Below, piece by piece: positions 1 to 17,500 of a stretch of DNA of 30,697 nt (positions are counted from its first letter, which is position 1; every line of letters starts with the position of its first letter). This stretch comes from a virus, in IMG/VR virus record IMGVR_UViG_3300032462_001224, positions 1 to 30,697 of that record; one strand, written 5' to 3'. A program made the position numbers and the translations under genes. The notes below the pieces were generated by a model that was given only the letters and a program-made list of their open reading frames with translations, did no database searches and was not told where the DNA came from.

Positions 1-1215
1 TGTCTTGCGCCAGAACGTATCTAGCAAATGGGTGTTGTCTGTGCTGTTCATAAAAGTAATAGCACTTTCGAATCCAACTGTAGCACGAGTTAATTGGTCC
101 AATGGTCGTAACCATTCTAAATGTTCTTCGTAACGGGTTTGAATCTGTTTTTTGTATTCAGCTGTTGCAACGTCAACTCGCAAATACGCAGGATCTTGTA
201 GTATATTTACGTTGAGGTCTTGCGGTCTCAACAACCCTTTTTCTACCCAGTCTTTATGGAAGTCTGGCAAATGCATTGCATTCATAATACTCAGCGTGGG
301 ACTAATATAAAAGTCTACCTTGGGACATATCTCCATCATTTGCCTGCGGTTTTCTTCTACCACATCCCATTCAGTGCCTTTTCTAATATACTCTCCGCGC
401 GGCCCGGACGCATCCAAACTGGCGCCAACTGCCACACTGTCAAATTTGCGCCAGTAATCAAACACAGTGCGATCTTTAAGACGGGTTTTTGTGAAATTGG
501 TATTGTATATTAGTCTAACATCAAATCGTCCTCTGCGTTCTAGTTCTTCTAGAATCAAATAGTGTTCTTCCATCATCAATGGCTCTCCACCAGCAAAGTA
601 AATTTGCTCTACATGATCAATATGTTCAATCAGTTGTTCCCACACATCAGTAGCAAACCGGCCAGCATAGTTCAATGGCTTGTTTATTTTTGCCCAAGCT
701 GGGCCTGCTAGTTCAGTTTGGTCTTTGTACCAACTGCTGCTGAAGATATGCCCGCAACTTCTGCAACTTAGATTGCACAAATTGCTAAAACGCAGATCCC
801 AGTACGTCATTTCAAACTGGTCAGTGTGTCCGGTTTTGTCGGTTGCATTCACCCGGTCAATATGGTGGCCGTGATGTTTGTTTGCACTTCGGCGACCGCT
901 AAAAAATCCAGACTCTTCTTGTTCGTAACAACGGCCGCAAGCAGCATTGGGTGTTTCAGTCAGCATATCAACTCGTAGTTGTCGTTGCTCTGGACTGTTC
1001 CAAATTTCTGCTAGTGTATTTGTTTTACAGTTTCCAATTTGTCCCACTTTCATTTCGGCATGACAGCAGGGATATGCTTCGCCAGTCGGGTATGCATGCA
1101 CATGTATCCAAGGATAGATACAGAACGTTTTGGAATCTTTTAATAGAAATTCTTCACGATCCGTTAACTCAATTGGTTTTACTAAATCACTGCTGTTGTA
1201 TTTGTAAGCTGTCAT
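1..1215 (-). CDS. Radical SAM protein with N-terminal twitch domain (third copy; C-terminus cut by window edge)
   Basis: I translated this frame by hand from ATG at 1215. It stays open for 405 codons to base 1, so the C-terminus is missing. Residues 30-36 read TFCIYPW, followed by the pair C50-C51 and by C93/C96. With C32 this gives Cx18Cx41CxxC, the layout of an N-terminal twitch (half-SPASM) iron-sulfur domain. The radical SAM cluster motif CNLSCRSC follows at 147-154 (CxxxCxxC), and AGGEP at 208-212 is the usual SAM-contacting GGEP. Family knowledge: such enzymes cleave S-adenosylmethionine to start radical chemistry and the auxiliary cluster helps hold substrate. The target is unknown. 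The start overlaps the end of the previous radical SAM gene by 29 bp, suggesting coupled translation. Of the three copies it is closest to the textbook N-twitch form, with the doubled cysteine and the following GQIGN. Family assignment is confident; substrate cannot be stated. Confidence 0.87.
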   Translation of the reverse strand, partial: MTAYKYNSSDLVKPIELTDREEFLLKDSKTFCIYPWIHVHAYPTGEAYPCCHAEMKVGQIGNCKTNTLAEIWNSPEQRQLRVDMLTETPNAACGRCYEQEESGFFSGRRSANKHHGHHIDRVNATDKTGHTDQFEMTYWDLRFSNLCNLSCRSCGHIFSSSWYKDQTELAGPAWAKINKPLNYAGRFATDVWEQLIEHIDHVEQIYFAGGEPLMMEEHYLILEELERRGRFDVRLIYNTNFTKTRLKDRTVFDYWRKFDSVAVGASLDASGPRGEYIRKGTEWDVVEENRRQMMEICPKVDFYISPTLSIMNAMHLPDFHKDWVEKGLLRPQDLNVNILQDPAYLRVDVATAEYKKQIQTRYEEHLEWLRPLDQLTRATVGFESAITFMNSTDNTHLLDTFWRKT

Positions 1216-2533
1216 ACCATTCTTTTAAATTAGGAAACGTTTCTCCAAAGTTTTTATGTCTACGAATATCGTACTGACTAAAAAATTGATAAAAATCGTT
1301 GTGCAGCGTAGGCATTTCAAATGCATCGCTATGAGGTGTTTTGACAATATCCAAATAATCTAATAGACGTAAAGTATGGTTAATTTCATACTCGTGCATA
1401 TAATCACTGTCTGCATGGCGTGCCAACCACTGAGATAAATTTTCTTTGTATTGTGTTTTAATGTCAGCTGGCAATATCAACGGACTTTGAAAACTAGGAA
1501 ATCGTAATATATTTAGCGAAAACTTTACACCATCTTTGCCGTATTTCTTTTTAAATTCTATCAATTGTTCTAGGAATTCAGGAAGACTGTCTAAGCACAG
1601 TGCATTGATTGTGCACATCACGTGAACGCCGCGGAACTTGCCACTCTCAACAAGTTTTACCACGTTCTGCATCCATACAGTGTAGTCCAACCCATCACGT
1701 ATATATTCTGCTTGTATACCCACTGCTTCATTGCTGGTATACAAATCAATTGCAACACCGTCTACACTTCCAATTAGTCGATCAATATCAACATCGGCAC
1801 CTAAGTTACTGTTGATTGCTAAACAAGTTTTGCTCTTGCCTTTGTTTGTTTTGAACCACTCAATCAGCTTCCACGTTTCGGCTGACATCAATGGCTCACC
1901 GCCGGTTATCCGCAGTTCCTGCAATGTTTTATGCAAGTCCGATTCCCACCATTTATGGAACGCTTCTACATACGGATTAACTTCTGCAATCTTAAACAAC
2001 TGAGCACTGTTATGAGCATGCGTAAAGTGATTACGACCATCACTGATTAAATTGTTGTATGCTCCGTTTTTCTTGATGTCTTTTACCCAAGTGCTACTGA
2101 AAGCAGGATTGCAATAGCTACAAGCAAATTGGCATGTTCGGTCAAACGCAATTTCAAGTGTGCGAAGATTTATATCTTCATTGTAAGGAGTGTTGTAAGC
2201 ATCATTTAGTGCCACTATAGGGTAAATTTTACTTTTGTACACACGATCGCTAATGGCATCGGTTGCCATGTCTTCGATCTTCCAGCAGTATTCACAACCT
2301 TCCGGACGTTCACCTGCTAACATTTTTTTACGGTCATCCTTCTTTTTTGCTGTGTTATGCAATGCAGCAGGATTAACCTTTAGCTCTTCTATATCAATTG
2401 CATGCGCCGGTGGATGATGACAACTTGTTGTTTGTCCCGAACCTAGCCATATAGTGGCATTGTACCATTTGGCAGCACAGAAACTAGCACTTTTGGTATC
2501 CAGTATTTGATGTTTAAAATCTAAATCATTCAT
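1187..2533 (-). CDS. Radical SAM protein with N-terminal twitch domain (second copy)
   Basis: A 448-aa protein. Twitch-type cysteines are C19, C38, C80 and C83 (Cx18Cx41CxxC), with TSCHHPP around C38 and CEYCW at 80-84. The radical SAM motif is C134, C138, C141 (CQFACSYC), continuing NPAFSSTW. ITGGEP at 209-214 matches the SAM-binding GGEP. It is clearly paralogous to the 474-aa gene upstream: both have HPP after the second cysteine, LHNT about 20 residues later, a CxYCW...ED...SDR block, and CSYC.P.FSSTW. It shares the same skeleton with the third copy but less sequence. ATG at 2533 overlaps the stop of the 356-aa gene by 8 bp (ATGAATGA). The gene sits between a GT10-like gene and another radical SAM gene, so it probably works in the same modification pathway. 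The reaction is unknown. Confidence 0.88.
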   Translation of the reverse strand: MNDLDFKHQILDTKSASFCAAKWYNATIWLGSGQTTSCHHPPAHAIDIEELKVNPAALHNTAKKKDDRKKMLAGERPEGCEYCWKIEDMATDAISDRVYKSKIYPIVALNDAYNTPYNEDINLRTLEIAFDRTCQFACSYCNPAFSSTWVKDIKKNGAYNNLISDGRNHFTHAHNSAQLFKIAEVNPYVEAFHKWWESDLHKTLQELRITGGEPLMSAETWKLIEWFKTNKGKSKTCLAINSNLGADVDIDRLIGSVDGVAIDLYTSNEAVGIQAEYIRDGLDYTVWMQNVVKLVESGKFRGVHVMCTINALCLDSLPEFLEQLIEFKKKYGKDGVKFSLNILRFPSFQSPLILPADIKTQYKENLSQWLARHADSDYMHEYEINHTLRLLDYLDIVKTPHSDAFEMPTLHNDFYQFFSQYDIRRHKNFGETFPNLKEWYDSLQIQQQ

Positions 2534-3596
2534 TGATATATTTTGTCATAAACTGTTTGAAGCGTTCTGGAAACTCGGCTCGGACTTTGATTCGCATTTC
2601 GGTAAGGTGTTGTTGATTGTATTTACATACATTGTAACACTCTTTTAGGAAACTTGCAAGATCTTGTTGACATAAATCCCGGACAAGTTGACTAACTCTT
2701 TCTAATCGAGCTTGATTATTCTCTATCAAATCAAAACTTTCATCGATCACATGACCAAATGTTTTAAATCCTAAATTATGCATATCTCTGTAATAGCCTT
2801 GATTGGCCACTGCTATCCAAGGATGTCCCATAGCAACGGGTTTCCATATCTTTTCTGTTCTGAAACTATAAGGATAATCAAATACTGTTTCGGTTACCAA
2901 GCTAAAGTAAGTGTCGCTGTATGGTCTAGCATCAAGGTATATTTCTCCCCATATTCCAGTGCCGAACAGTTTACTTTTTACATTGTTGTCACTGACAGAA
3001 AAGTCAGTATTGAATCTTTTATTTTCGTACTGCTTGTTTAGCAGTTTTATAGGCCCGTTGCTGGCGTCTAAGTTAGACCATAAAGCTGTATCAAGCAATT
3101 TGGATAGTGCTGCTATCATATACTTTCTATGATAGCGATATAGTCCATTTAAAAATAAAAACTTGTACGGTCTTTTTGTTGAATAATTGTTGTTATATGT
3201 TTGTATAGCATTGATGTTTTCATTGTAATCTAATATTTTTGGAAGAAAACTATCGTATTGCAAACACGGGTACGACTCTTCCATATCGCCGCCGCCGATC
3301 AATAATATTTTTTTATCTAATACCAATTGCGTTATGTTAAACATATTGCAATGTTTTTTTAATGTGTTAGACCCCTCCAACGGGTTGCTTAATATTATCT
3401 TAACAGTGTCATTGTTGTTTGCTACATCCTTGAGCCAAGGCATATTTAAAACAAATTGCTCTCGCCCTATTAGATATATAGCATTTGAAATTACAGCATC
3501 CTGATGTAAATTGCAAAACTTGTAATCCACATACGGGTCGATGTTGTCATGTACGTCACAATTTACATCAACTATTAGTTTACGATTGCCGATCAT
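2526..3596 (-). CDS. Putative glycosyltransferase, GT10 (fucosyltransferase)-like C-terminal half
   Basis: A 356-aa protein without signal peptide or membrane segment. The recognisable part is residues about 230-290: FSLVTET, then FRTEKIWKP, then GHPWIAVA, then LGFKTF and IDESFD. This order of an acidic T-E-T, a T-E-K-x-x-x-P and a G-H-P stretch resembles the nucleotide-sugar site of GT10-type fucosyltransferases and related phage proteins. The N-terminal half is less familiar; it holds LLIGGGDMEESYPC and an aromatic FLFLNGLYRYHRKYM segment. The gene overlaps the upstream radical SAM gene by 17 bp and the downstream one by 8 bp, so it is translated as part of the same set. A role transferring sugar to the substrate of the radical SAM enzymes, or to a shared acceptor, is inference. 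An uncharacterised phage-specific family is the main alternative. Confidence 0.55.
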   Translation of the reverse strand: MIGNRKLIVDVNCDVHDNIDPYVDYKFCNLHQDAVISNAIYLIGREQFVLNMPWLKDVANNNDTVKIILSNPLEGSNTLKKHCNMFNITQLVLDKKILLIGGGDMEESYPCLQYDSFLPKILDYNENINAIQTYNNNYSTKRPYKFLFLNGLYRYHRKYMIAALSKLLDTALWSNLDASNGPIKLLNKQYENKRFNTDFSVSDNNVKSKLFGTGIWGEIYLDARPYSDTYFSLVTETVFDYPYSFRTEKIWKPVAMGHPWIAVANQGYYRDMHNLGFKTFGHVIDESFDLIENNQARLERVSQLVRDLCQQDLASFLKECYNVCKYNQQHLTEMRIKVRAEFPERFKQFMTKYINE

Positions 3597-5004
3597 AGTA
3601 TTCGCACTGGGTCCACCAGCTTTTCATTTCAGGAAATGTTGCTAAAAAATCTGTGTCATGCCTGCGGTCCGCTTCACTGAAGAAACGATAAAAGTCTGCT
3701 TTGTTTGTTTGCAAGTATTCCTTGTCCAACTGTTGCCCGTTGCGCATCCACGCTATGTCACGATCAAGACGGGCTATTTCGTAATCTTTAAAGCCGTGGA
3801 ATCTGGTTGCTTCTGTTTCAATGTCTTGTTGCATTGAAGTTTTTAATTTGTCCAACTGTGCAACATAACTTTCTGGCAACAGTTGCAAACTTTGCCAAGT
3901 TGGTTGACGCAACACAGGAGTATCAAACCACACACGTTGATATGTGCTACTGTGTTTTTTTCTAAGATCAAGTATGCCAGCAATCAGTTTTGGCAAACTT
4001 GTGACACTTAGATTGTTCATTGTCACAATGAATGTAATGCTGTTACGGTAAGGAACTTCGGTTAGGAATTGATTTACCCTGGCCCATACCAAATCAAAGT
4101 CAAGTCCGTGACGCATGTATTCTGCTTGTTCGCCCCACCCATCTAAACTGATGTACTGCATAAAGTGTTCGATTACACCTTCTTGGCACAGTTGTTTTGT
4201 ATATGCAAGATACTTTTGCCATAGTTTTTCGTCTACACTAAAGTTACTGGTCACATTCAAGTGCAAATCAGGCTTGGGATTGACCAACACATAGTCAAAC
4301 ACTCTATATGTGTTTTTGTCCATCAAGGGTTCGCCACCGGTCATACGGAAGTGTTCTAGTTCTGGATACAGCGTAGGCCACCATTCCCAAAACGCATCCA
4401 CATAAGGATTATCTTCACGAACCGGAATAGGTTTACGTTCTCCTGCAAAGTGTTCCGGAGCATTATGCGGAGTTGATGTAGGGTAAGCGCCGTGGCGGTC
4501 TATTTCTTGTTGCCATGTGCTACTGAACTGTGGACTACAATAACTGCAAGCAAGATTACAAGCATTGTTGAAGTTTACTTCAACATAACTGGGAGTAATG
4601 TCAGCATCCCACTCGGCATTTACAATCTTGCCAAAGTCTTTGGCGGCCCATGGCTCACCAGATCTATAATGACGGTCGCTTAGTTTACCGTTGTCTTCCA
4701 TTGTCCAGCAATAGCTACACTCTGCTGGCCGTGTGCCTTCTAGCATCTGTTTACGCTGTTGCTTTTTGTAATCAGTGTTGTGCAGTGCAGAGGGATTACG
4801 ACCTATTGCTTCTACAGGAATACGATGCAATGGAGGATGATAACAACTGTTATTGAGTCCCGTAGTTAGGTGTAGACTGACTTGTTTCCATTTGGCCAAG
4901 CACATGCTGGGACTAACAGTGTCCAACTGTTCTTTGATCAGTTCAGCATCGCTTAAAAACTTTGATTTAAAGTCTTTGCTAACTTCGTCGCCTTTATTTT
5001 GCAC
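3580..5004 (-). CDS. Radical SAM protein with N-terminal twitch domain (first copy)
   Basis: A 474-aa protein starting with GTG directly after the TAA of the upstream gene (TAAGTG). AAGGA about seven bases upstream is a good ribosome binding site and decides this start. Twitch-type cysteines are C35, C54, C96 and C99 (Cx18Cx41CxxC) with NNSCYHPP and CSYCW. The radical SAM cluster ligands are C149, C153 and C156 (CNLACSYC), followed by SPQFSSTW. MTGGEP at 221-226 is the SAM-contact motif. The rest fits a partial TIM barrel with LNVTSNFS and YISLDGWG, where a strand usually holds the substrate. It is the closest relative of the 448-aa copy. Its N-terminus is 16 residues longer than that copy's. 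Cytoplasmic, no membrane segment. Function beyond radical SAM chemistry is unknown. Confidence 0.9.
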   Translation of the reverse strand: MQNKGDEVSKDFKSKFLSDAELIKEQLDTVSPSMCLAKWKQVSLHLTTGLNNSCYHPPLHRIPVEAIGRNPSALHNTDYKKQQRKQMLEGTRPAECSYCWTMEDNGKLSDRHYRSGEPWAAKDFGKIVNAEWDADITPSYVEVNFNNACNLACSYCSPQFSSTWQQEIDRHGAYPTSTPHNAPEHFAGERKPIPVREDNPYVDAFWEWWPTLYPELEHFRMTGGEPLMDKNTYRVFDYVLVNPKPDLHLNVTSNFSVDEKLWQKYLAYTKQLCQEGVIEHFMQYISLDGWGEQAEYMRHGLDFDLVWARVNQFLTEVPYRNSITFIVTMNNLSVTSLPKLIAGILDLRKKHSSTYQRVWFDTPVLRQPTWQSLQLLPESYVAQLDKLKTSMQQDIETEATRFHGFKDYEIARLDRDIAWMRNGQQLDKEYLQTNKADFYRFFSEADRRHDTDFLATFPEMKSWWTQCEYYDRQS

Positions 5005-5931
5005 TTACCATCCTTCTTGACTGCGTATTACATCAATCTCTCGTACAGCAACACCGCGGTTATGCCAGTTGCTACGGTAATGGTGTTTGAAGAATTTGCT
5101 AGTGGGTTCATCAAACCACACCATTGGCAAGTCCAACTGTGTGCCAAGTTCTTCTGCCACTTTGCTTAATACAATTTCTGGATCAGTATCTTTGACTGTG
5201 TCCCACAATTGTTCAAGTGCAGCAAAGTCTTGTACTGTACGATAGTCCCAATCTGTCAACATGGTCATGTAAGTGCCCATGCGCGAGCCTGCCATGCTCC
5301 AAACACCATGTTCCGCATCTCGGCCCACATTGTGCCATACAGTTAAGTTGTCAAGATTGCGTTTGTGTGCGCGGTCTTTGAATTCAGCCAAGGTGGGTTT
5401 TTTGCCCACATTCAAACACATCTTGACACCTTCTCTAAAGCCGGCTCTCCAGGCATGAAAAGCAGATCCATTTGGAAATGTAGTTGAATAGCAATCGTGC
5501 ATGGCCCAGTACAACGGATCAAAACAAAATTCTACTTCTGTGGCTTCGCGACCATCTGTGGCTTCGTGTGTTTGCATTTCGTTGGCAAACTTTCTTGTCC
5601 AAGAACTCAATCCACCGTTGCCGTACATCAAGCCATTGACATGATTGCGTGCTCGCCAACGAAACACAGCCGATTCCCATTGTTCAGTTGGTAGTTCTAA
5701 TGTTAGATTAAAGAACTCTGGATCCGGCATGTTGTCACCATCGATCAATACAAAGCGTTCTGTTTCGCTTGCGGCGGCTGCTGCTTTGTGTGCAGCATCG
5801 CTTCCTTTAACTCCGTCGACGCGTTTGGCCCACGGAACCATGTTGCGAATCTTCACCCAGAATTCTTCTTTCTGCGGCTCGTCGTATGTCAAGTAAATGC
5901 AGTCAAGGTCTGCAATATCAATCCGATTCAT
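5005..5931 (-). CDS. GT-A-type glycosyltransferase-like protein
   Basis: A 308-aa protein. The N-terminus (CIYLTYDEPQKEEFW) and FVLIDGDNMPD at 60-70 fit a nucleotide-diphospho-sugar transferase fold. DGD (64-66) is the DxD-type motif that would hold the metal and sugar nucleotide. A later WHNVGRDAEHGVWSMAGSRMG stretch with conserved-looking His and Trp residues may form the rest of the site, though that is inference. There is no membrane segment. ATG at 5931 overlaps the upstream gene by 14 bp with GGAG eleven bases upstream; the stop abuts the GTG of the radical SAM gene. Similar proteins occur in marine T4-like phages, where their acceptors are not established. The donor sugar and acceptor are unknown here. 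Confidence 0.65.
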   Translation of the reverse strand: MNRIDIADLDCIYLTYDEPQKEEFWVKIRNMVPWAKRVDGVKGSDAAHKAAAAASETERFVLIDGDNMPDPEFFNLTLELPTEQWESAVFRWRARNHVNGLMYGNGGLSSWTRKFANEMQTHEATDGREATEVEFCFDPLYWAMHDCYSTTFPNGSAFHAWRAGFREGVKMCLNVGKKPTLAEFKDRAHKRNLDNLTVWHNVGRDAEHGVWSMAGSRMGTYMTMLTDWDYRTVQDFAALEQLWDTVKDTDPEIVLSKVAEELGTQLDLPMVWFDEPTSKFFKHHYRSNWHNRGVAVREIDVIRSQEGW

Positions 5932-6265
5932 GTGATTTCAAACTCCATTTAATATTTGGTTGTTGCTGGTCAACAACAATACTGATGTTGCCGGGCAAAC
6001 AAGGTGTTCCAGAAATACCAGGAACTAGTTTGGTAACTATTTTCTTTGGTTTTATGTGTACCAGTTTGCCATCGACCACACGCACATTTCTTGAACTGTG
6101 TTGATATGCTGTAGCGTCTATGTCTATGTAATTACCTGGCAAGTCTTCCATGCTGTAAGATAATGGTGAACCATTCTCATTGTAGTACAGTCTAAAAAAT
6201 ACAGCACCGGGAACTGGCACTGGTTCCGCCCATGCTTTCCAGAAATTTTCAGTAGTTTTGTTCAT
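5918..6265 (-). CDS. Small conserved phage protein of unknown function
   Basis: A 115-aa soluble protein with no cysteine pair or membrane segment. The visible pattern is FFRLYYNENGSPLSYSMEDL, then PGNYIDIDATAY, then NVRVVDGKLVHIKP, and GTPCLPGNISIVV near the C-terminus. It looks like an all-beta domain with a conserved YSMEDLPGNYI core. I recall similar proteins in other marine phages but cannot name a function. ATG at 6265 overlaps the stop of the membrane-protein gene by four bases (ATGA), and its own end overlaps the next glycosyltransferase gene by 14 bp. Its place between two sugar-transferase genes suggests a helper role in the cassette; that is inference. Confidence 0.7.
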   Translation of the reverse strand: MNKTTENFWKAWAEPVPVPGAVFFRLYYNENGSPLSYSMEDLPGNYIDIDATAYQHSSRNVRVVDGKLVHIKPKKIVTKLVPGISGTPCLPGNISIVVDQQQPNIKWSLKSHESD

Positions 6266-6528
6266 TGTTTAACAACACAATTCCTGCGATAATTGATCAG
6301 TCCGTATGCGGCTATAATAAACCATACAATTTCAATAATTATACTACTGATGTTGGGTTTGTAGTATAAATTAATTCCCAAAAGTATTGCAACAATCAAG
6401 TTGGCCAAGTTGTACTGCCAGCCTTTGCTGTCTATCTTGCCTGCTACATTTAGGTAATAGGTGGTTAGTAAAATAACAACGCCAATGTTGCCAACAAAGT
6501 CACTCCAGCTGTAGTCATATTCAATCAT
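6262..6528 (-). CDS. Three-helix inner-membrane protein, CBU_0592-like
   Basis: The preferred start is ATG at 6528, giving 88 aa beginning MIEYDYSWSDFVG. GGAAC sits just upstream, the overlap with the previous gene is only 8 bp, and the sequence matches the usual family start. An in-frame ATG at 6561 would add 11 residues. Hydrophobic segments are at about 14-30, 40-56 and 62-78, ending in a basic NYRR tail. The order GNIGVV...YYLN...G, NLANLIVAILLG, and IIIEIVWFIIAAYGLI closely follows the small CBU_0592-type membrane family of bacteria, whose biochemical role is not known. It is the only membrane protein visible in the window. In a glycosylation cassette it could anchor the soluble enzymes or act on envelope lipids, but this is inference. 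Confidence 0.72.
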   Translation of the reverse strand: MIEYDYSWSDFVGNIGVVILLTTYYLNVAGKIDSKGWQYNLANLIVAILLGINLYYKPNISSIIIEIVWFIIAAYGLINYRRNCVVKQ

Positions 6529-7297
6529 AGTAGTTCCAATTTTTGTTGTTGTAATGCACAAATCCCCACTGTACTATTGTTTGTATTCGTAACCCTGGGT
6601 TGGTATTTTCCCATATCAACTCTTTTGTCCAATCTTTAGTATGAGTGGCAACAATGCCCTGCTTCATATGAACAATAGTAGGACCGTGCCCAACTGGCAA
6701 TGTCACTTGTTCTCTGCCCATTATGTCTGCAGCCATGGCATAAACAACATCGGTTGACGGCTCTTCTTCGGCAAACTTTAATAGTGTTTTAAAGTCTGCC
6801 CAATTCTCAAATATATCTCTTACCCATTGGAAAAACTCTTGAGCTGTTTTACTCAACCGCCAATACGTTATAGCATTGTACACGTCTGGCAAGTTGTTGG
6901 CATCAAACAGTTTACGATAACGACGATGTGCGCTGGGCTGGTCATAAAAGTCTCTACATCCTTGACTCACAACTACGTCACGATGTTCAAACATGGTCCA
7001 CAAATGGTCTACTGGACTGGCAACAATCATGTCTGCTTCCAGTTTAATAGTTTGCCTATAAGGACTTGCTCTGAACACTTGCCAGTCATTTGCAAAGCCA
7101 CCTTTGTCACCGTACGGCAACATTTCTTTTGTTAGGATAGTTATGTTGGCGTCAGGATGCCATGCTCGTATGCTTGCGGCCAACTGTTCTGCACAGGCCA
7201 CATAGTCCACTGTGTCTGTGTTGATGGCTGGGATCAAATACCCACGTTCAGCAAGGATTGGCAACGATTGCTCCCAGTTGTTGTTTGCCCATGGCAT
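6521..7297 (-). CDS. GT-A-like glycosyltransferase paralog with EAD in place of DxD
   Basis: A 258-aa protein. YLIPAINTDTVDYVACAEQ near the start, NITILTKE at 51-58, and SPYRQTIKLEADMIVAS (78-92) line up with the neighbouring 266-aa protein. Both therefore belong to one GT8/GT-A-like nucleotide-sugar transferase group. The first Asp of the DxD motif is Glu here (E87-A88-D89). A second acidic patch, PSTDVVYAMA, and VGHGPTIVHMK toward the C-terminus resemble the distal metal-binding His region of GT8 enzymes. Start choice is uncertain. ATG at 7297 overlaps the upstream gene by 50 bp and has no clear ribosome binding site. TTG at 7264, preceded by GGGAG, would shorten the protein by 11 residues and the overlap to 17 bp. 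Donor and acceptor are unknown. Confidence 0.66.
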   Translation of the reverse strand: MPWANNNWEQSLPILAERGYLIPAINTDTVDYVACAEQLAASIRAWHPDANITILTKEMLPYGDKGGFANDWQVFRASPYRQTIKLEADMIVASPVDHLWTMFEHRDVVVSQGCRDFYDQPSAHRRYRKLFDANNLPDVYNAITYWRLSKTAQEFFQWVRDIFENWADFKTLLKFAEEEPSTDVVYAMAADIMGREQVTLPVGHGPTIVHMKQGIVATHTKDWTKELIWENTNPGLRIQTIVQWGFVHYNNKNWNYYD

Positions 7298-8048
7298 GAA
7301 AGTCTTGGTTCAATATGATCCACCGTGGTTTTTTGTCAGGAGTTAAAAAGTCTACCCTGTAGGAGTCTTGTGAAAGTTGTGTCAATTTGTGTTCTGGGGT
7401 AATACTTGCCAACGTGCCGGCAATCTCGTTGACTTGTAAGGTGTGTCCGTTCAGAGTATTTAATGCAATACTAAGAGAATGATCATTCCTGTACGTGGGT
7501 GTGTTATTTTTATATAAATTTCTGTAGTGAGTCCAATTGTTGCGTATCATTTCCATTGATTCAAATAGCAGTTGCGTTTTACTACAACGACGAAACATCA
7601 TAACAGTTGCCCACCACATAGGCATCCTATGACTTCCAAAATAATTTAAATCATCAAATGTTTGTAGTCCGGTGACATCAGTTGCCCAGCGGTGGCATAA
7701 AAAGTCTTGATCACTTGCTAATACTGTAGAGAGTTGATTGCTAGCAACAACATAATCTGCATCCAATACCAATGTTTGATCCCATGGACTTAATTTGTAA
7801 GCATCCATGCGATTTGTATTGTGCCATGTTACATTTGAGTTGTAATCAGAAAAGTATCTTGCACCGCCCTGTGCCGGATCAGCAAGTATTACTTTGTCAA
7901 ACGAATGTCCGCCGGCAGGCTCTTCCCGGGTAACAACACAAACAGGAATATTCAAATGCCGTTGTATATTTTTGGCAGACCAGTTGGCCATTGCGACATA
8001 ATCAGTATGTTCGTTATTGAACGCAAATATTAATGCACCAACAGTCAT
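7248..8048 (-). CDS. GT-A-like glycosyltransferase
   Basis: A 266-aa protein with an N-terminal strand GALIFAFNN, then DYVAMANWSAKNIQ, VCVVTREE, and LSPWDQTLVLDADYVVAS holding D96-A97-D98. That is the usual DxD of GT-A enzymes that bind a nucleotide sugar through a metal ion. MPMWWATVMMFRRC and NDHSLSIALN follow, as in GT8-like proteins. No signal peptide or membrane helix is evident. ATG at 8048 overlaps the stop of the 101-aa gene by four bases (ATGA). It is paralogous to the next gene, suggesting an old tandem duplication with divergence. It probably uses a nucleotide sugar to glycosylate a virion or host-envelope acceptor; the acceptor cannot be read from the sequence. Confidence 0.72.
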   Translation of the reverse strand: MTVGALIFAFNNEHTDYVAMANWSAKNIQRHLNIPVCVVTREEPAGGHSFDKVILADPAQGGARYFSDYNSNVTWHNTNRMDAYKLSPWDQTLVLDADYVVASNQLSTVLASDQDFLCHRWATDVTGLQTFDDLNYFGSHRMPMWWATVMMFRRCSKTQLLFESMEMIRNNWTHYRNLYKNNTPTYRNDHSLSIALNTLNGHTLQVNEIAGTLASITPEHKLTQLSQDSYRVDFLTPDKKPRWIILNQDFHAMGKQQLGAIVANPC

Positions 8049-8424: not shown

Positions 8425-9423
8425 TTAAGCAACTGATGCTGCAATAGTCGGAGTGCCCCAAGATGCACTTGTCAAGTAAGTGGCACTCGGTACAAATAAC
8501 GTAACTACTGTTGCAGGTGCTGTACCAAACGATACGAATGGTGACGCAGAAGCAGTACCACCTGTGATCACGTTGTTACCGCCTGGTGCTGGATCGCCGC
8601 CTGGGTCAACCCAAGTTGTAGTCAACACCAATTGTGTGCCGCTTCCGGCTGTTTTGGCATTTATGCTAATATACTGTCCGGCATACGGAGCAGTATCAGC
8701 ATATTGACGATATACTTGTGTATCGCCGGTTGTAAAATTGAACCATCCTGTGCCAGTGGCCAGTGTATTTGGTGTGCCAGTGCCGCCAACTTTAGTAGTT
8801 CCTGTATAACTTGATGCTGCGATAACTTGTGGATTTAGTGCAGCGCCGCCGGTGATATAAATATCGCCAACCAATGTAGTAGCCAAGTCATTCCATTCTG
8901 CATCACCGTCATTACCGGTTGAAGTTTTGCTTGATTCCCATTTGATGCGTCCACCTGCGTTGAAGAAATAACGTGCAGCATTGGCAGTAGCAAATGTTAC
9001 AGTATGTGTAAATGTGATTGTCCAGGCTGCGTTAGCGGATCCAGTGTTTGTTGTTTTGCTTGCTGCGCCACTAAATGTTGTAGTTTGGGCACCACTTGCT
9101 GCTGCATTACCACGCTTGGCAATAAGACTAGTGATGTCTGTGTTTAGATCTGCTAAAATTGCAACAGTAGTTCCAGTTGTTGGATTTGCTCTACTTGTGA
9201 TAGTGGTGCCTTGATGACTTGCCATTGAAGTAATTTTACTATTCAATGTGGCCCACTGTGTTGCTGTGATGGTTGCTGCGACCGAAACTGTGGTCAGTGC
9301 TGTTTCCCCGTATCCTGCTGTGTCTGCACCAGTTGACCAAATTCCGTTTACGTTTGCTCCGTTTGTGCTAACAAACCCATTATAGTCTGTTGCCGCGATG
9401 ATACTACCTGCTGTATATGCCAT
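8425..9423 (-). CDS. Virion structural / tail-fibre-associated protein
   Basis: A 332-aa protein, strongly rich in Ala, Thr and Gly, with almost no charged helices. The N-terminus (MAYTAGSIIAATDYNGF) and the TAGYGETALTTVS...ITATQWATLN region are typical of marine phage virion proteins. NAARYFFNAGGRIKWESSK (about 146-165) is a recurrent signature of the same group, followed by long beta-rich stretches such as GTGWFNFTTGDTQVYRQY. It is the last gene before the terminator and shares the MAYT start and an AGYGE tetrad with the 426-aa fibre-like protein. Likely part of the tail fibre or baseplate periphery. The specific role is not known. ATG at 9423 follows a weak AAAGGGA site. Confidence 0.68.
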   Translation of the reverse strand: MAYTAGSIIAATDYNGFVSTNGANVNGIWSTGADTAGYGETALTTVSVAATITATQWATLNSKITSMASHQGTTITSRANPTTGTTVAILADLNTDITSLIAKRGNAAASGAQTTTFSGAASKTTNTGSANAAWTITFTHTVTFATANAARYFFNAGGRIKWESSKTSTGNDGDAEWNDLATTLVGDIYITGGAALNPQVIAASSYTGTTKVGGTGTPNTLATGTGWFNFTTGDTQVYRQYADTAPYAGQYISINAKTAGSGTQLVLTTTWVDPGGDPAPGGNNVITGGTASASPFVSFGTAPATVVTLFVPSATYLTSASWGTPTIAASVA

Positions 9424-9501: not shown

Positions 9502-10782
9502 TCAATTGATTTTAACAATCGCTTCTACAATGCCTTGTTCTTCTGTTAATTTATCATTTAATGAACGACCAATAACATTAAACGCTGTTGCTTCTCCGGG
9601 CTGGGCAGCTCTTGCCAATCCATTTCCGGCCGAAACAAGTCTATCTCCTTTGCGCACCAACCCCATAGTGTTGACCGGGACACGTCCTGTCATTGCAACA
9701 GCAGGGTGAGTTGTGTCGGTACCAGCAAGACTGTTCATCAGGTAAGCAGCTCGTGTACTTATGACACCAAACACTTTTTCGCTTAGTTCATCTGTAACTC
9801 GAGTGATTTCGTTGGCACCTCCAAGTTCAACAACAGTACCTGCTTCTAGTTCAGCGTCAGCTGCAAAACGTTCTGCAACGTCGGCGTACTGAGCACTAAT
9901 GTTTGTGCCACTGATACTGCCAGTGGCACCATTGATTGTCATAGCAGTAGTTGGTACACCGCCTTTGTTGACATTGAATGTTATGTTGCCGTTGTTAGTT
10001 TGATTATACAGTGTTACTGCTGTTCCTGCAACCCCGATTCGGGCATCTTGATTGGAACCAACCGATAAACCGGTATTGTTCAAAACAGCAAATGTACCTG
10101 TTGTTGTTTCCGCAACGTTCTTTAACATAAAGTCGGACGGATCATACCCTTCAAGTGTTTGAGCAACACTTGCTGTACCCTGGAACAACGGAACTTGCGC
10201 ACCAACCAGTGTGCTCAGTGTGATACCGGGACGTACTGTTGTGTATCCTGCAATAGTGCTAGCCGGAGTAAATGCAGCATCCTTGCTGACAATACCAACA
10301 ATATTATCTTCAACAAACAATTTAATTACAACGTGTGCTACTGCCACGTTGTCAGTTATAGAATCAGCAATTGCGCCAGTTGTACCTTGTCCGGATGTAA
10401 ATGCCGGCCCAACTAGCAAAAATGCACTGCCTGTCCATACTTTAAGCTGTGCATTAACTGTGTCAAACCACAAATCGCCTGTTACGTTGTTTGTAGGAGC
10501 AGTTGCTTGGGCAGTAGTAGACGAAATCGTTTTCCACTGCGCGCCGTTGTAGGCTTTCATCAAACCAAGACTACTGTCCCACCAAAGTTGACCAGTTAAT
10601 GGTGCTCCTGGCGCTGTGGGGTTGGACGAATTTTCCAACAGGTGGATACAGTTTTCGTTTAAGAATTCACCGTACCCAGCGTAGTTTTTACCAACCAGTA
10701 TCATTGAACTGGAAGTGTTGATTGTACCATCTGCAACTGTAGCAAAGATTGTACCGTCTGTTAAGTTAATTGTATATGCCAT
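9502..10782 (-). CDS. Tail-fibre-like protein with C-terminal processing-type domain
   Basis: A 426-aa protein. The N-terminus MAYTINLTDGTIFATV and the block YAGYGEFLNENCIHLLEN are common at the start of marine phage fibre proteins. Two copies of a short module follow: GQLWWDSSLGLMKAYNGAQW at about 64-83 and GDLWFDTVNAQLKVWTG at about 102-118. The C-terminal third, from ISAQYADVAERFAADAELEA (about 294), contains VFGVISTRAAYL, AMTGRVPV, LVRKGDRLVS and GIVEAIVKI. This pattern resembles C-terminal fibre or appendage domains that act as intramolecular chaperones, some of which cut themselves off (Peptidase_G2-like). Whether this one cleaves is unknown. ATG at 10782 follows GGAG, and a NATAAATA box lies about 22 bases upstream. 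A receptor-binding role is plausible. Confidence 0.72.
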   Translation of the reverse strand: MAYTINLTDGTIFATVADGTINTSSSMILVGKNYAGYGEFLNENCIHLLENSSNPTAPGAPLTGQLWWDSSLGLMKAYNGAQWKTISSTTAQATAPTNNVTGDLWFDTVNAQLKVWTGSAFLLVGPAFTSGQGTTGAIADSITDNVAVAHVVIKLFVEDNIVGIVSKDAAFTPASTIAGYTTVRPGITLSTLVGAQVPLFQGTASVAQTLEGYDPSDFMLKNVAETTTGTFAVLNNTGLSVGSNQDARIGVAGTAVTLYNQTNNGNITFNVNKGGVPTTAMTINGATGSISGTNISAQYADVAERFAADAELEAGTVVELGGANEITRVTDELSEKVFGVISTRAAYLMNSLAGTDTTHPAVAMTGRVPVNTMGLVRKGDRLVSAGNGLARAAQPGEATAFNVIGRSLNDKLTEEQGIVEAIVKIN

Positions 10783-11578: not shown

Positions 11579-14500
11579 TTATTCGCCCCGTAAAAACCTT
11601 GCGGCATCTGTGTCAGTATCTTGCAATGCAACTCCGTTGCTTGGTGTTCCGGCACCGGGTGCATACCATGTGACACCACGTTGAACCAAGATAGTAATCT
11701 CGGCCCCGTCTGCTGGCGCAGTGTCAAACAACACAGTTACCGGATTTTCGTTAGTAACTGTGTATCCGGCTGTTTGCAACGTGCCGCCTACATACACTTC
11801 GATTGCTTCAATATCAACAGTACTATCAGCACCTGACACATCTATCAGCGAAGCAACAAATGATGTTGTTACACCATTGCCAAGATTTATACCCGACACC
11901 AATGGATAAGGTACGGTGGACACAATATAGTTTTGATATTGTGATTCTAATAGATTACCACGACTGATGTTGTAAACGTCTGTGTTTATGGCATGGCTGG
12001 CTGCGCCTGTTCCTGCTGTGCCGCGACGTAATCCACTTACAGTATTGGCATTGGTGTCACGAGTACGGTACATAATTCGTTCGCCATCTATAGTCAACAG
12101 TCCCCAAATATTGCTAGTTAAATTTGGTTGATTAAGTGCAGCAGCGTTGTAAACATGAATTGTATCGTCAGTGGCACTCAATGCCTGAGTCAAGTATGTT
12201 GTGGTTGCTGAAGTAATTCGATAAGTTGCTTGGACTTTGCGCATGTCTTGGAATATGCGGAATGCCATTGCTGCCGGAGCAATACTTAAAGTAAACTCGG
12301 TAATCATCACAGTATCCGTAGCCGACAATGTGTATCCACCTGCTAGTACAATTTCGTTGTTGACAATTGTGTAATCAACATTGTTGAATATCAAGCGACC
12401 GTTCAATGTGACAAACAATCGATCTGGATCTGTGTTTGTATGGTCCAAGAATAAGTTGTTGAGTGATACTGCTTGTGTTGCACTGTAATCAAATGTTCCA
12501 GCTTCGTTGATCACTATGCCAACATCAAAGTTCAAACTATCAAATGGTTCTGTCAGCGTTTGTGTGCCGCCCACCGGACCAACATACACTTGTGTCAACA
12601 AATCTTGCTGACGAGTGTCATTCCAACTTATTACGGAAATAATTTCACCAGTGACTGGCACAAGGCCACCGTACTGGTTAAACAACAGTTGGTCTCCGTT
12701 TATCACTGCTTGTGCATTGGTTGTTACACAAATTAAAATCTTTTCGCCATCTGATGGTGTTGTAGCAAATATTACAGAACGAGGCGTTTCTGTATCATAC
12801 GGCTCTACCAGGTAATCAATATTAAGAATCAACGGAACATCGTTCATGTATACACGAACTTCGTTATCGGCAATCAAGGCTTGACTAAATCCCAACCGCT
12901 GCGGTAACAAATATTCACTTGTGCCGTCGGCCAAGTATTGTGCGCCAGCAGCAGTTCTAACACGACGGCCACCAACGCTGACGTAGACATTGTCTGGGTT
13001 GGTATACTCCATGTTGTAATTTACTGTGTAACTGTATTGATTGGTGACACCTGTAATATTTTGAGTAACCGGAAGTGCCCAGCTATAATCTACTGTAGCA
13101 TTATCAACAGTTGTTAATCCAATGGCCCCGATCATCAAATAATCAGCTGCAGTATAAGTTTCTCCAAATGTCAACAATGTGCTTGTGGTGCCATTGCTGG
13201 CATAGGTGTAATTGATAGTTAAACTGCCATTGACAAATATAACAAACTCTTCAATCAACGAAAATTGAACAGGAACTACCAACAAGTTTCCAACTTCGTC
13301 GCCGTTGAACGAACGCTTGAGTAACTGGTTTCCGCCACCAATTTCATATAGCGACAGTGATATCACTTGACCTACATTTACATCATTGCTGGTTATTGTT
13401 ATAGTTTGATTTGCCCAATTGGCTGTGTAATCTACGTTACGATACAACACCAACCCAGTTGTTTGATTTACTACAAACATTGTAGCAGGGGTTGTTTCTA
13501 ATCCAGCAAAACTAAATGTTTCCTGAAGTGTTGTTACCTTGTATTTTTGTAGTTCAATGCGGAAACCATGTCCATCACGCGCCCAGTCTGCACCTGGTGT
13601 TGTGTAAACGCGCATATCCAGCGTGTCAAACTCGCTGCCGGGCACTAGTTCTTCTGGAGCATAACTTGAATATGTGTCAATATATTCTCCGCCATCTGCG
13701 TTGATGCTGGTGGCCAGCGTTCCCAAATACGGATCGTTATATGGGCTTTCGTAAATAGCATCCAATATAGTTTGATCGTAAGTGGGTTTTCCTTCCGGAC
13801 CATATGTTAAATTATCAAAAGGTGTTGTGTCAAACGGTGCCAAGTCAAAGCCTGGGTATTGGTCATATCCTACTCCGAACATTTGTACGCCTGGGTATTC
13901 AACTCCGTCAATCAGCAATGGTAAACTTAATCCGGGCTCGTTGACAGTAGGAGTATAAAATCCCATTGTACGATCAACGCCGCTCAGCAAAGCAGGGCTA
14001 ACTATTGTCCACTGATCTGGATCAAAGGTACTACTTTGAATTCCTGGGCTGTCATCGGCATCAGCTTGCCACACACGATTTAAATAACGCACTTGTGTGC
14101 CATTGTCGTAGTTTGCGTCAGCTTGCCATTCAACAATATCAGACGAGTATTCGTATCTGTCGTACTTGATTCTGGTAGTGACTTGGCGAACCAACTCATT
14201 GCCCATTGTTACTGCGGCAGCTGCGCCTGTACCGTTGCCACCAGTAAATGTTATTGTAGCAGTGGTTGTGTAGCTGCTGCCATAATTGTCAATTGTAACT
14301 CCGGTGACCTGGCCTGCGCCGTTGATTATAGCAGTCATTTCTGCTTGTTCAACACTGTTGCCAGTCACTGTGATTGTTGGCGCAACTGTGTAACCAGTGC
14401 CGCCGCTTGTAATAACAACGCTTTGAATACTCAATGTGTGATTGGCGTACCATTCGTCCCATGGCGTTTGTGCCCACACTGTTGAGTTGGACAATGTGTC

Positions 14501-17500
14501 AGCATTAAAGTTTGTATTGCTGACCGCCGTTGACTGTGTGTATGGCAACAATACTGGGCTAATAAATTCCGGAACAGTTAATGTTGAATCCCAGTATGAT
14601 GGTATGTCAAAGTCGGTTACTGACCCAGGGAAAGCATCGTTGCCGTTGTAAGACAAATTAAACTCACGAATTTGTGTGTGGTAAGGTTTAACTTCTTGTA
14701 TATAGTTCAATACAAAATCTTGATTGTCTTGGTTGTAAAACTGGTACGGTAACAAATTGCGGATCTTGTGATCTACATCAATCAAACTGGTTTTGATTAA
14801 CCATTCGGGTGCTGCAAATTCGCTCATTATATATTCAAACACCAGTGTCAACGCACGGTTACGTTCAATCAACAATTCATCAACAAACAACTGTTCGTTA
14901 ATTGCTTGAATAATCTTGCGAGTTTCAATCACCGGCTCTTGATCAAAATATTGTGCATCAAATACTTCTACGTCAAACCCAAAATTGCCAGCAGCATAAT
15001 TCCATAATGACTTGCTGAATTCAATTGTGCCATCCTCTAAGCCTACACGATCCCATCCAAGATCGGTACGTTGATAAATTTCAAATTTGCCTGTTCCCAG
15101 TGCGTTGGTTACTTTAACGCTGGCACCCACTGGTGCAGTGTTTAACGTTAGTGCAGACAGTCCGGCGTAGTTTGATACTGTGGCCACAGGGTTTAGATTT
15201 TTATTATAGCCAATCAAGTACCAGTCAATGTAACTCCAGTAACGACGTGTGTCGTAGTTTTGCACACGAATCAAAGTTAACTTTCTTGATCCAAATAGTG
15301 ATCCTGCAACAACGTCGTATATTGTCCAAAACCCAGAATTGGTTGAATCAGACACTACCAAATATTTGTATCCATAAGGCACAATACTTAAATTTTGATA
15401 ACTCAATTCATCTAGGTTGGCAATACGCTTGTTCCACGCACCTGAGCTGGCCGACGGCTCAGGCTCTCTGCTGTTGAGTATTGTAAAGTTCTTTGTTTCG
15501 CTAACAGGATACTGTGCCACAACTGTGTTGGCTCGTCCAAGATAATTTTCCAATGCCAAGAAACGATCAACAAACATGCTTTGACGTGGGCGGAATTCAA
15601 CACCATAGCGCATTGCTGGACTCAATTCAGCATCTGGCACATTGGCGCCCAACAGGTTGATACCAGAGAAACTGTCTTGTAGTTTTAAGTATAAACTATC
15701 GCTTAGGAAACTGTTGCTGCGCCCGGCAGCAATTAATTCGTATTCTTGGTGTACATTGTCGTCATTTACCAAACGATCGTATTCGATATGCAAAATTGTG
15801 TCTTGAGCACTTACCAAATCAAGCACATTGTATATTGCAACGGTGCTTGCATCCAATGGTGCAAGATATGCAATACCACTGGCACGTGGATATTCAATAT
15901 AGTTGGCAATTGCAGTGGTGCTGAGTTTTTTGCCTGCTGCAGTATTGACTGTAGAAATATTTCTTACCCAGAAATAATAACGAGTAGCAAAAATATTTTC
16001 AGAATTTAATTCAGCACGAGTAGTAAAACTCAAGAAGCTCAATGGAGTTCCTGGGCCTGTATAGTTAGAAGGTGTTACATCACTTTCGATCCACTGATAA
16101 ACGTCAATACGGCTGCCCGGGAATGTCTGTCCCCATCGACGGCTTGCGTAAACAATATCGTCTTGATTTGGATCAATGAAACGAACTGAGTTGGTGTCCC
16201 ACCAAATTTGACCAACTCTTAAAGCACTCCACGGATTGCCAACATTATGAATCGGGCCATTGCTGTAATTTGCAGGATCCACTGCACCAATGTAATCAAT
16301 GTTTTCACGGGCAACACCAAGTATCTTGCCTTGCAATGGATTGAAGAAATCCAAATAACTAGTAACTTGTGATTCTAATTTATCATACATGTAAACAGAA
16401 TTCAGCAAAGCAACATCTACCACGGGTGTTTGCTGATGTTTCACTGCCCATGCTTGTTTGCGTTCAGGGTTGTCAAATATAACAACTTGACCAAAATTAG
16501 CAAATTGGCTGTCTTCTAGATCGTTACCAGGAGCGCCAACCAACAGTTTGCTTGTTACGTAACTGAGTCCTGTTCCGTAGTTGTCCAGCTCGTTGGTTTT
16601 GTTGTTGTACAATTGTTGGCCAAACACAAACTTGCCAGGGTCGGTCACTGTGTCTGTTGCACTTGGCAAATAATCAAATGTGTACGCTACGCCACTTTGT
16701 ACGATTGTAGTTGAGAATATTGTGCTACGGTCATCAAAGTAAGTTGCATTGGCATCAAATGTAACTGGCTGATACATGTTGCCATTTGGCGCGCCAACAA
16801 CCAAAGTTGATGCAGTTGAGTCAACAGTCAGACTAGCACCAAAGCGAGCAAATTGGCTTGGATTTGGACTTGTGATAGTTTGTGTATATGAATAGTTCAC
16901 AAAGCCAATGTTGACAAACGCTGTGCCAGTAAGCCCAGGCAATACGTTCAATTTTGTTCCTGGCAATGCAGCAGCAGAGTTTATAACACTGATAGTCAAT
17001 ATGCCAGACACTACACGAATTATAGTTCCGCTGGCCGGTGTGCTACCAAATGTAACAATGCCAGTAGTGTTGTTGTAAGTGTAATTGACATTTATTGTTT
17101 GCAACACAGTGTCGGCGTATACCACTAGCGTATAGCTGTTGTATTTTGAATATGTTACACCAATGTCAAACGTTTTTACAAGTCCGTTGGCGGTAAAGTA
17201 CACATCGTCGCTGACTGCGGCTGTGACGTTTGGAATACCAATTCCGTCATTCAACGCAGCAATTGCTGTAACTAATCCTGCTACATTGTTGTTGGGAATT
17301 GCTGGTACAGCAACTTGATAATTGTTGACGCGAATTGTATCTCCTGCTGTTAAACTTGGATTTGCAACAGGTGATGAAATTATTCCGTACACACGAGCTT
17401 GATTAACGTTGCGCTGTACTGCGCCAGTGTCATCGTTGGCATTTTGCGGTGCACCCGAATAAATGCTACAGTTTGTTGAGCATAAATCTACATCCCATCC

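Follow-up and report, generated by a model that had tools for sequence, protein, structure and literature searches.

The window analysed here is the whole 30,697-nucleotide stretch of the IMG/VR virus record IMGVR_UViG_3300032462_001224, and its first part carries three minus-strand genes for N-twitch radical SAM proteins, designated A (positions 3580-5004, 474 amino acids, GTG start), B (1187-2533, 448 amino acids) and C (1-1215, truncated by the window edge, with 405 amino acids visible). The radical SAM set extends past the window end, where C is cut. The three genes had been described as lying side by side in the initial annotation; they do belong to the same cassette, but gt1 (2526-3596, 356 amino acids), a gene for a probable GT-B-fold glycosyltransferase, separates A from B and overlaps both. 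The remaining cassette genes in the window are also on the minus strand. A gap of 0 bp lies between A and GTA5 (5005-5931), whose product is tentatively glycosyltransferase-like, followed by a gene for a conserved 115-amino acid protein of family f20 (5918-6265; recovered in 9/12 records of related cassettes), a hydrophobic open reading frame of 99 amino acids with a TTG start (6262-6561; matches in 7/240 loci), GTA4 (6521-7297), a candidate glycosyltransferase gene tentatively regarded as GT8/glycogenin-like, and its relative GTA3 (7248-8048, about 20% identical). GTA3, GTA4 and GTA5 were present in 12/12 records, and from GTA3 through C the genes are overlapping or adjacent, with gaps of -50 to 0. 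Immediately upstream of the cassette, again in 12/12 records and on the minus strand, is a family f1 gene (8425-9423) whose product is probably a virion or tail protein; it gave no HMM match, and the tail label comes from its position. The next minus-strand gene (9502-10782) encodes a virion structural or tail-fibre-like protein with matches to PHROGs, among them families of virion structural and tail fibre proteins.

The cysteine positions read from the translations agreed in every case with those given in the initial annotation. The pattern Cx18Cx41CxxC has exactly one match per protein, at Cys 35/54/96/99 in A, 19/38/80/83 in B and 32/51/93/96 in C, and it is followed after 49, 50 and 50 residues, respectively, by CxxxCxxC (Cys 149/153/156, 134/138/141 and 147/151/154) and then by GGEP (starting at residues 223, 211 and 209). 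A and B form the closer pair, since they share 34% identity in BLASTP local alignments, as compared with 22% for A-C and 23% for B-C; the motifs HPP, LHNT, CxYCW and SDR are common to A and B only, and C carries the CC doublet at residues 50-51. All three proteins scored above the 170-bit cut-off of the NCBIfam model NF033640 (N_Twi_rSAM, twitch domain-containing radical SAM protein), with 326.8, 289.6 and 379.7 bits for A, B and C, respectively, which bears out their proposed N-twitch assignment. Pfam SPASM (PF13186) was matched by residues 32-97 of C (46.4 bits; gathering score 21.5) but not by A or B, although their four cysteines align in the family alignment, and the three window proteins reached 20.8, 25.6 and 26.2 bits against PF04055, under its gathering score of 29.5. 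The placement of A, B and C in the radical SAM superfamily therefore rests on the NCBIfam match of all three and on the fold of A. The AF2 model of A (mean pLDDT 86.4) gave radical SAM enzymes as its best matches in the PDB with VIA (SkfB, Z 14.1; SuiB, 13.4; BlsE, 13.2), and with Foldseek just two matches at E ≤ 0.001, SkfB and viperin. The VIA list thus mixes a sugar-nucleoside enzyme, BlsE, with peptide enzymes, and it is headed by the peptide maturase SkfB. BtrN, a twitch enzyme acting on sugar, was absent among the 50 VIA matches listed for A, a list that does not exclude it. We found no published reaction for any member of NF033640.

The initial annotation drew attention to the identical spacing of the N-terminal cysteines in the three proteins, and suggested from the neighbouring position of the paralogues that they may perform sequential or alternative steps on one substrate. 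The spacing was recounted with fixed patterns in 691 unique full-length relatives from viral loci. A Cx18C pair could be placed at the proper position in 681/691 of them, and the exact 18/41 pattern was found in 361/691: 137/150 A, 136/139 B and 83/135 C sequences, 0/120 D and 0/109 E sequences (D and E being two further paralogues described below) and 5/38 others. In a tally favouring the cysteine pair nearest to 18/41, the second spacer was mostly x45 in D and x51 in E. The match among A, B and C is thus beyond chance, but it reflects homology; as a signature it was rejected, being a product of ancestry that is exact in just 83 of the 135 C orthologues, and as inherited family architecture it is no evidence of a common substrate. 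The proposed retention of the ligands, in contrast, was upheld, since the full set of 4+3 cysteines is intact in 149/150 unique sequences of A and in all those of B (139/139) and C (135/135), as well as of D (120/120) and E (109/109).

The three genes are part of a larger array. In 12 records the gene order, with insertions in some, is tail genes-GTA3-GTA4-(w5918)-GTA5-A-(gt1)-B-C-D-E-f9-carbamoyltransferase, where an overlap rule had removed B (G016) and C (G001), both recovered in separate searches, and the cassette stands beside virion genes in 12/12. The co-occurrence of A, B and C was surveyed from three anchors, taking the best 80 loci per query (relatives 45-100% identical to the query) and counting a locus if it was long enough. 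Loci seeded with B contained A in 57/57 and C in 54/54 cases; loci seeded with GTA5, an anchor that is not a radical SAM gene, contained A in 58/58, B in 53/54 and C in 51/53; and loci seeded with E contained A in 58/58, B in 60/60, C in 60/62 and D in 63/66, with an O-carbamoyltransferase gene downstream in 43/44 and an amidinotransferase gene in 21/43. In the loci surveyed, A, B and C did not occur independently of one another. Joint use of the cassette enzymes is well supported, as had been suggested for the three paralogues; the unit, however, consists of five or more of them together with a glycosyltransferase-like set and a carbamoyltransferase. Among 32 records chosen from these best-80 loci, two of which (G012 and G013) may be the same virus as they score almost equally at corresponding relative positions, all 32 contained 7-21 N_Twi_rSAM genes and a carbamoyltransferase gene (PF02543). 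Beyond the cassette there are often genes for an amidinotransferase, a DegT aminotransferase and a nucleotide-sugar epimerase/dehydratase, and a repeat protein, f11, also encoded there, was considered as a possible substrate. The contig G001 carries DegT, carbamoyltransferase and SDR genes (Pfam) and an amidinotransferase gene (PDB sequence match) whose product is related to AGAT, inosamine-phosphate amidinotransferase and SxtG. The baseplate gene is akin to those of jumbo phages, and no close DNA relatives were found among named phages; in tblastn searches of these, A matched two Vibrio phages, and C the same two plus one single-cell marine virus, at 24-25% identity. A-E are five non-redundant N-twitch enzymes of one conserved cassette in large T4-related aquatic phages. 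A, B and C resemble the NF033640 family in their N-terminal four-cysteine motif and CxxxCxxC; here, by contrast, five members make up a fixed set.

For every lineage from A to E there is a separate relative in Bdellovibrionota, which argues against the set being a duplication made in phages, and a single phage clade was rejected (p-AU 1.6e-76), so that in-phage duplication of A-E was discarded. Sequence comparison thus indicates that the A-E paralogues were distinct before the split between phage and bacterium. Relatives of all five lie in one locus of Bacteriovoracaceae UBA6144 (G034:C41), a 2.66-Mb contig, G049, is another example of such arrays, and Bdellovibrionota have up to 20 N-twitch radical SAM matches per genome. 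Unlike the phage cassette, the bacterial arrays are not accompanied by the cassette glycosyltransferase set and are often incomplete, their recurring part being an E-D pair found in five of the six E-bearing loci. Apart from radical SAM genes, the genes common to E-bearing loci are mostly confined to the pair G098/G125, the exceptions being a family of about 240 amino acids in G049 and G034 and a carbamoyltransferase in G125 and G034. In ten Bdellovibrionota genomes unselected for the trait, 6/12 carbamoyltransferase genes have an N-twitch radical SAM gene no more than 15 kb away, as compared with 0.41 expected, at a distance set post hoc after the data had been seen; at 5 kb the values are 2/12 and 0.19. 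Among the twelve bacterial genomes taken first, four had been selected for carbamoyltransferase or amidinotransferase matches in their loci, and none of these four entered the statistic. A choice of 90 proteins neighbouring the bacterial arrays in nine genomes matched 99 Pfam families, the 25 commonest of which include Glycos_transf_2 (2 proteins), carbamoyltransferase (3) and DegT (2). Judged from these commonest families, the bacterial arrays do not resemble loci for polysaccharide synthesis.

The glycosyltransferase-like genes differ in how they were assigned. The AF2 model of gt1 (mean pLDDT 82.7) matched a glucosyltransferase (Z 13.2) and an alpha-1,3-fucosyltransferase (Z 12.2) with VIA, and the 50 matches listed (Z 13.2 to 10.6) are all of glycosyltransferase type by title; Foldseek gave weaker support, with three matches at E ≤ 0.001, all to the SdgB glycosyltransferase (TM-scores 0.28-0.43). 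Neither Pfam nor NCBIfam contained a match to gt1, the related proteins tried likewise matched 0 Pfam families, and a gt1 profile run against the PDB returned no glycosyltransferase, so that gt1 is classed as a probable GT-B glycosyltransferase by its predicted fold alone. GTA5 (mean column identity 78% in an 11-row alignment) is a tentative assignment because it matched Pfam Glyco_tranf_2_3 at E 0.089 and its profile search of the PDB gave no glycosyltransferase and nothing useful. A joint GTA3/GTA4 profile weakly matched several glycogenins (best E 0.13), and GTA4 matched no glycosyltransferase family in Pfam. On these weak matches GTA3, GTA4 and GTA5 may tentatively be regarded as glycosyltransferases. 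The PDB profile search with f9, which lies between E and the carbamoyltransferase gene, gave nothing useful.

We propose, at a probability of roughly one half, that the cassette encodes the synthesis of a glycan which is carbamoylated, is modified by radical chemistry and is located on the surface of the virion or the host. The starting material would be a nucleotide sugar leading to an unusual phage-built glycan. Each radical SAM enzyme would use its CxxxCxxC cluster to cleave SAM, would have a putative second [4Fe-4S] in the N-terminal twitch cluster, and would be responsible for a single reaction at a C-H bond of the sugar or the growing glycan, be it dehydrogenation, epimerisation or deoxygenation. 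The glycosyltransferases would then attach the sugar, the carbamoyltransferase, whose family acts on sugar-type hydroxyls, would cap a hydroxyl, and the product would decorate the tail or the host surface. Of this picture, the analysis shows the enzyme family, the intact ligands, the fixed and co-inherited gene set and its linkage to the carbamoyltransferase, whereas the two clusters, the glycan as substrate, the sequence of steps and the site of the product are inferred. Several observations point away from a glycan, namely the peptide maturase at the top of the fold matches of A, the few glycosyltransferase neighbours in bacteria, the weak assignments of GTA3, GTA4 and GTA5, the classification of gt1 by fold alone and the amidinotransferase in only 21 of 43 loci.

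Some of these observations would fit a modification of protein, which has perhaps one chance in four, where the five radical SAM enzymes would cross-link, epimerise or oxidise a tail fibre or the 115-amino acid protein and the glycosyltransferases would glycosylate the same protein. According to a passage of PMC11002830, SPASM/twitch radical SAM enzymes are common in peptide-modifying pathways. In the fold search with A, SuiB and anSME come close after SkfB, the cassette directly follows tail genes, and few glycosyltransferases are found near the bacterial arrays; however, the carbamoyltransferase, of a family that acts on sugar-type hydroxyls, is a near-constant downstream partner (in 43/44 loci and in all 32 records), the 115-amino acid protein was not recovered in 3/12 records, and no precursor peptide came to notice in the course of the annotation. 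Aminocyclitol pathways combine amidinotransferase, carbamoyltransferase, DegT, SDR and radical SAM enzymes, and the comparable genes near the cassette, including the relative of AGAT, inosamine-phosphate amidinotransferase and SxtG, together with BlsE and DesII among the fold matches of A, would suit a small diffusible aminoglycoside- or nucleoside-type metabolite rather than a surface glycan. This is rather improbable, given the immediate linkage to tail genes in 12/12 records and the restriction of the amidinotransferase to about half of the E-seeded loci. Large phages do carry scattered additional N-twitch radical SAM genes (in G007, ten of the 16 recovered lie outside the cassette), and gene content around the core varies, as would be expected if unrelated accessory genes had gathered in a variable island with no joint function; nevertheless, the near-complete co-occurrence and order seen from three anchors largely refute such a gathering, the same five lineages are grouped in a bacterial locus, and we consider it quite unlikely. 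Least probable of all is an action on phage or host nucleotides or DNA, which the viperin and MoaA matches in profile and fold searches could suggest, as the conserved core yielded no recognisable nucleic-acid gene, several of its genes having no assigned function.

Returning to the glycan pathway, a bolder version of it, which we hold only tentatively, is that a jumbo-phage lineage carries a radical assembly line for an undescribed carbamoylated glycan on the tail or host envelope that would control adsorption or superinfection. This version includes the A-E set held in common with Bdellovibrionota, and phage IscU and A-type carrier proteins often loading the clusters. The occurrence of a whole enzyme set in both points to exchange between jumbo phages and Bdellovibrionota, and the cassette provides genomic context for an uncharacterised N-twitch radical SAM family.

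Related gene groups have been described in other phages. For the host recognition cluster of pelagimyophages, the relevant part of PMC7029224 infers O-chain modification from glycosyltransferases and gives the radical SAM genes no role; the present cassette, in contrast, has a fixed order of five orthologous radical SAM genes plus a carbamoyltransferase gene in many large phages, its neighbourhood being that of virion genes throughout the 12 records and its glycosyltransferases comprising one recognised by fold and others tentatively. Aeromonas phage 332-Vera, a cultured giant phage, has eight radical SAM genes within its structural gene cluster; it differs in belonging to the Chimallinviridae according to the section of PMC12390700 that presents it, and it is likened to the cassette by description only. 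A T4-like environmental virus, in which 12 radical SAM genes occur together with an A-type carrier gene and the two kinds of gene were proposed to be connected, is alike in combining many radical SAM and Fe-S assembly genes in one genome, whereas the part of PMC5332604 dealing with it does not describe a set of paralogues, the order of these genes or the genes that accompany them.

Phage auxiliary metabolic genes are usually viewed as single or in small groups; it is unusual to see several radical SAM enzymes kept as a fixed set and, in many of the genomes concerned, Fe-S assembly genes as well. An A-type carrier gene was found in 17/32 cassette records and in 0/8 comparison phages, and IscU in 11/32 and 0/7, the seven comparison jumbo phages being cultured and from other habitats. 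Vibrio phage K566, which has N-twitch radical SAM genes and no A-type carrier gene, and the 15/32 cassette records in which no such gene was found, 12 of them below 194 kb, run counter to the supply link. The cassette nevertheless offers a testable reason for the presence of iscU and A-type carrier genes in some aquatic phages.

The minus-strand ORFs A (3580-5004), B (1187-2533) and C (1-1215, cut by the window edge) have exactly the cysteine positions, spacings and GGEP positions listed for them in the initial annotation, and each protein scored well over the cut-off of NF033640 (N_Twi_rSAM), the NCBIfam model for twitch domain-containing radical SAM (rSAM) proteins. The Pfam Radical_SAM score was below cut-off for all three, and only C matched SPASM. 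A and B are 34% identical, and C is 22-23% identical to either. From position 7248 down to C the genes overlap or abut (gaps of -50 to 0), and a 356-aa gene, gt1 (2526-3596), lies between A and B. The AlphaFold2 model of its product (mean pLDDT 82.7) matches GT-B glycosyltransferases (best Z 13.2; 50/50 listed matches glycosyltransferase-type by title); Foldseek gave a weaker result, with 3 matches at E <= 0.001 and TM-scores of 0.28-0.43.

The spacing shared by A, B and C is not special by comparison with 691 unique full-length relatives drawn from viral loci: the exact 18/41 pattern was present in 361, and a Cx18C at the right place was possible in 681. By paralogue, 18/41 was found in 137/150 A, 136/139 B, 83/135 C and 5/38 other sequences, and in none of the 120 D and 109 E sequences (the fourth and fifth rSAM paralogues, encoded beyond the window), where 18/45 and 18/51, respectively, prevail. 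The spacing says nothing on a common substrate for A, B and C. The claimed retention of ligands, on the other hand, was borne out: every B, C, D and E sequence and 149/150 A sequences keep all seven cysteines, four of them N-terminal and three at the SAM cluster, and this conservation argues that A, B and C are all probably active. GGEP was kept in every A to E sequence.

Five 100-base probes from the 30,697-base virus record were found exactly, and in the same order, in a 62,304-base contig that continues after C with D, E, the family f9, an O-carbamoyltransferase and more rSAMs, and that also holds an amidinotransferase, a DegT aminotransferase and a nucleotide-sugar epimerase/dehydratase past C. 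Gene order is the same in 12 records: tail genes, GTA3 (7248-8048), GTA4 (6521-7297), a 115-aa protein (5918-6265; recovered in 9), GTA5 (5005-5931), A, gt1 (recovered in 8), B, C, D, E, f9 and carbamoyltransferase, with extra genes inserted in some; the overlap rule removed B of G016 and C of G001, both of which separate scans recovered. GTA3, GTA4 and GTA5 are, on weak evidence from their sequences, candidate glycosyltransferases. Past the cassette, the amidinotransferase family and DegT were each found in 10 records, and the epimerase/dehydratase was found in 11, some of the 12 stretches stopping before these genes. Also located past the cassette, in 12/12 records, is the family f11 (521-2047 aa; e.g. 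L247:8441-11278), which has a variable number of ~65-aa repeats, a WxPxPxxPxYxYxF pattern occurring 0-8 times per protein and a part in common with GTA5 relatives; the two f11 proteins scanned had no Pfam match.

Around 138 dereplicated B genes, A was present in 134/136, C in 129/129, D in 120/123 and E in 101/117 of the loci long enough to show the gene. Because this set included loci fetched by the A or C query, co-occurrence was retested seed by seed, with the best 80 loci at most per query. B-seeded loci contained A (57/57), C (54/54), D (45/45) and E (42/42) throughout. E-seeded loci contained D in 63/66, C in 60/62, B in 60/60, A in 58/58, f9 in 44/47, carbamoyltransferase in 43/44 and amidinotransferase in 21/43, and GTA5, a non-rSAM anchor, was accompanied by GTA4 in 70/71, GTA3 in 70/70, A in 58/58, B in 53/54 and C in 51/53. 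Overall, the earlier suspicion that the rSAMs act jointly is strengthened, but the unit comprises five paralogues and glycan-type partners in a phage cassette rather than three rSAMs of special spacing. All 32 whole records had 7-21 N_Twi_rSAM matches each and at least one carbamoyltransferase. In G007 (346,856 bases), 16 N-twitch rSAMs were recovered with our own profile and a 300-aa minimum (21 with the N_Twi_rSAM model); of the 16, six belong to the cassette or flank it, and the other ten are dispersed.

Radical SAM enzymes use their CxxxCxxC cluster to cleave SAM and go on to abstract hydrogen, twitch and SPASM domains bear auxiliary clusters, and carbamoyltransferases of the family of the cassette enzyme act on sugar-type hydroxyls. 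This chemistry and the gene set make a glycan pathway the most likely reading of the cassette, with a probability of about 0.5. Protein modification by the cassette rSAMs ranks second and seems rather unlikely; the fold of A is undecisive on substrate type, since SkfB, SuiB, BlsE, anSME, MoaA and DesII all match it within ~2 Z units. Synthesis of a small metabolite, third in rank, is more doubtful still. Phages with multiple rSAMs as such are already noted in print: a T4-like environmental genome has 12 rSAM genes (PMC5332604), Aeromonas phage 332-Vera has eight (PMC12390700), and pelagimyophages bear rSAM cassettes within the tail-fibre and glycosyltransferase region (PMC7029224). Word searches of open PubMed Central, judged mostly from titles and the openings of abstracts, turned up no description of the five-paralogue set or of its carbamoyltransferase partner.

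A pattern scan across a collection of genomes from 84,980 species turned up 109 relatives, with 79 loci kept. Five of these (L290, L291, L292, L293 and L323), assigned to MAGs of Betaproteobacteria, Verrucomicrobia, Pelagibacter, Rickettsiales and Rhodobacteraceae, have phage tail genes and a full or partial cassette and are probably phage contigs put into wrong bins; L290, L292 and L293 have the order C-E-D instead of C-D-E. The nearest bacterial sets belong to Bdellovibrionota. A Bacteriovoracaceae contig (G034:C41) encodes consecutive proteins that best match B, E, D, C, D, A, B and A, and is most likely chromosomal, as phosphofructokinase, phosphoglycerate mutase, glutamate dehydrogenase and Obg genes lie near the array. 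In a 50-protein tree, with which a quick 114-protein tree agrees, every phage paralogue clusters with bacterial orthologues (for A, one from L370, 100/100; B, 100/98; D, 100/99; E, 100/100), the grouping of C being weaker (91/75). A single phage clade for A-E was rejected (log-likelihood 1063 lower, p-AU 1.6e-76). Judged from these trees, the five lineages predate the phage/bacterium split, and a set has passed between phages and bacteria, in one direction or the other. Of 290 sampled Bdellovibrionota genomes, 12 had an E-type match at the E 1e-60 threshold, six of them at E < 1e-150; E adjoins a D in five of the latter six loci and stands without D in the remaining one. On another Bdellovibrionota contig, N-twitch rSAM genes form an extended series (G038:C1:745513-774880), in a genome with 20 such matches at E 1e-20.

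Judged by the neighbouring proteins surveyed, the bacterial N-twitch arrays do not look like polysaccharide loci. A Pfam survey of 90 proteins near arrays in nine bacterial genomes matched 99 families, and among the 25 commonest, Glycos_transf_2 was present in 2/90 proteins, carbamoyltransferase in 3/90 and DegT in 2/90. In ten genomes first met via the E-type search, 6/12 carbamoyltransferase genes lay <=15 kb from an N-twitch rSAM versus 0.41 expected (naive P ~1e-6, the distance having been picked after seeing the data), and 2/12 lay <=5 kb away versus 0.19 expected (P 0.015). On MH319727.1 (Marine virus AG-345-D19, a single-cell virus contig; 5916-7953), a carbamoyltransferase 45% identical to that of the cassette directly precedes a radical SAM fragment related to C.

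An A-type carrier gene was present in 17/32 records, i.e. in 17/20 over 194 kb and 0/12 shorter ones, and IscU in 11/32. Seven cultured jumbo phages related by their baseplate gene had neither A-type carrier nor IscU and no N-twitch rSAM over the cut-off, two showing weak sub-cut-off matches. This contrast between phage groups is suggestive only, because the groups differ in habitat and host, and Vibrio phage K566, with N-twitch rSAMs but no A-type carrier found, counts against a strict link. A link of Fe-S assembly genes to viral Fe-S proteins was proposed earlier, in PMC5332604. In G007, IscU and the carrier are adjacent, and an additional N-twitch rSAM follows ~0.85 kb later; at 291406-294227 (L265) they are followed by a 272-aa ORF and then the rSAM, and the preceding 297-aa ORF starts with a radical-SAM-like cysteine motif.

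Elsewhere in the window, positions 11579-26008 form one 4,809-aa ORF in the structural region, adjoining a gene related to baseplate wedge proteins, and the translation of the ORF at 29869-30696 contains a ~30-residue stretch (ALQAAGQKAKSLLNGSIPSELGGLSGLSG) present twice in tandem.
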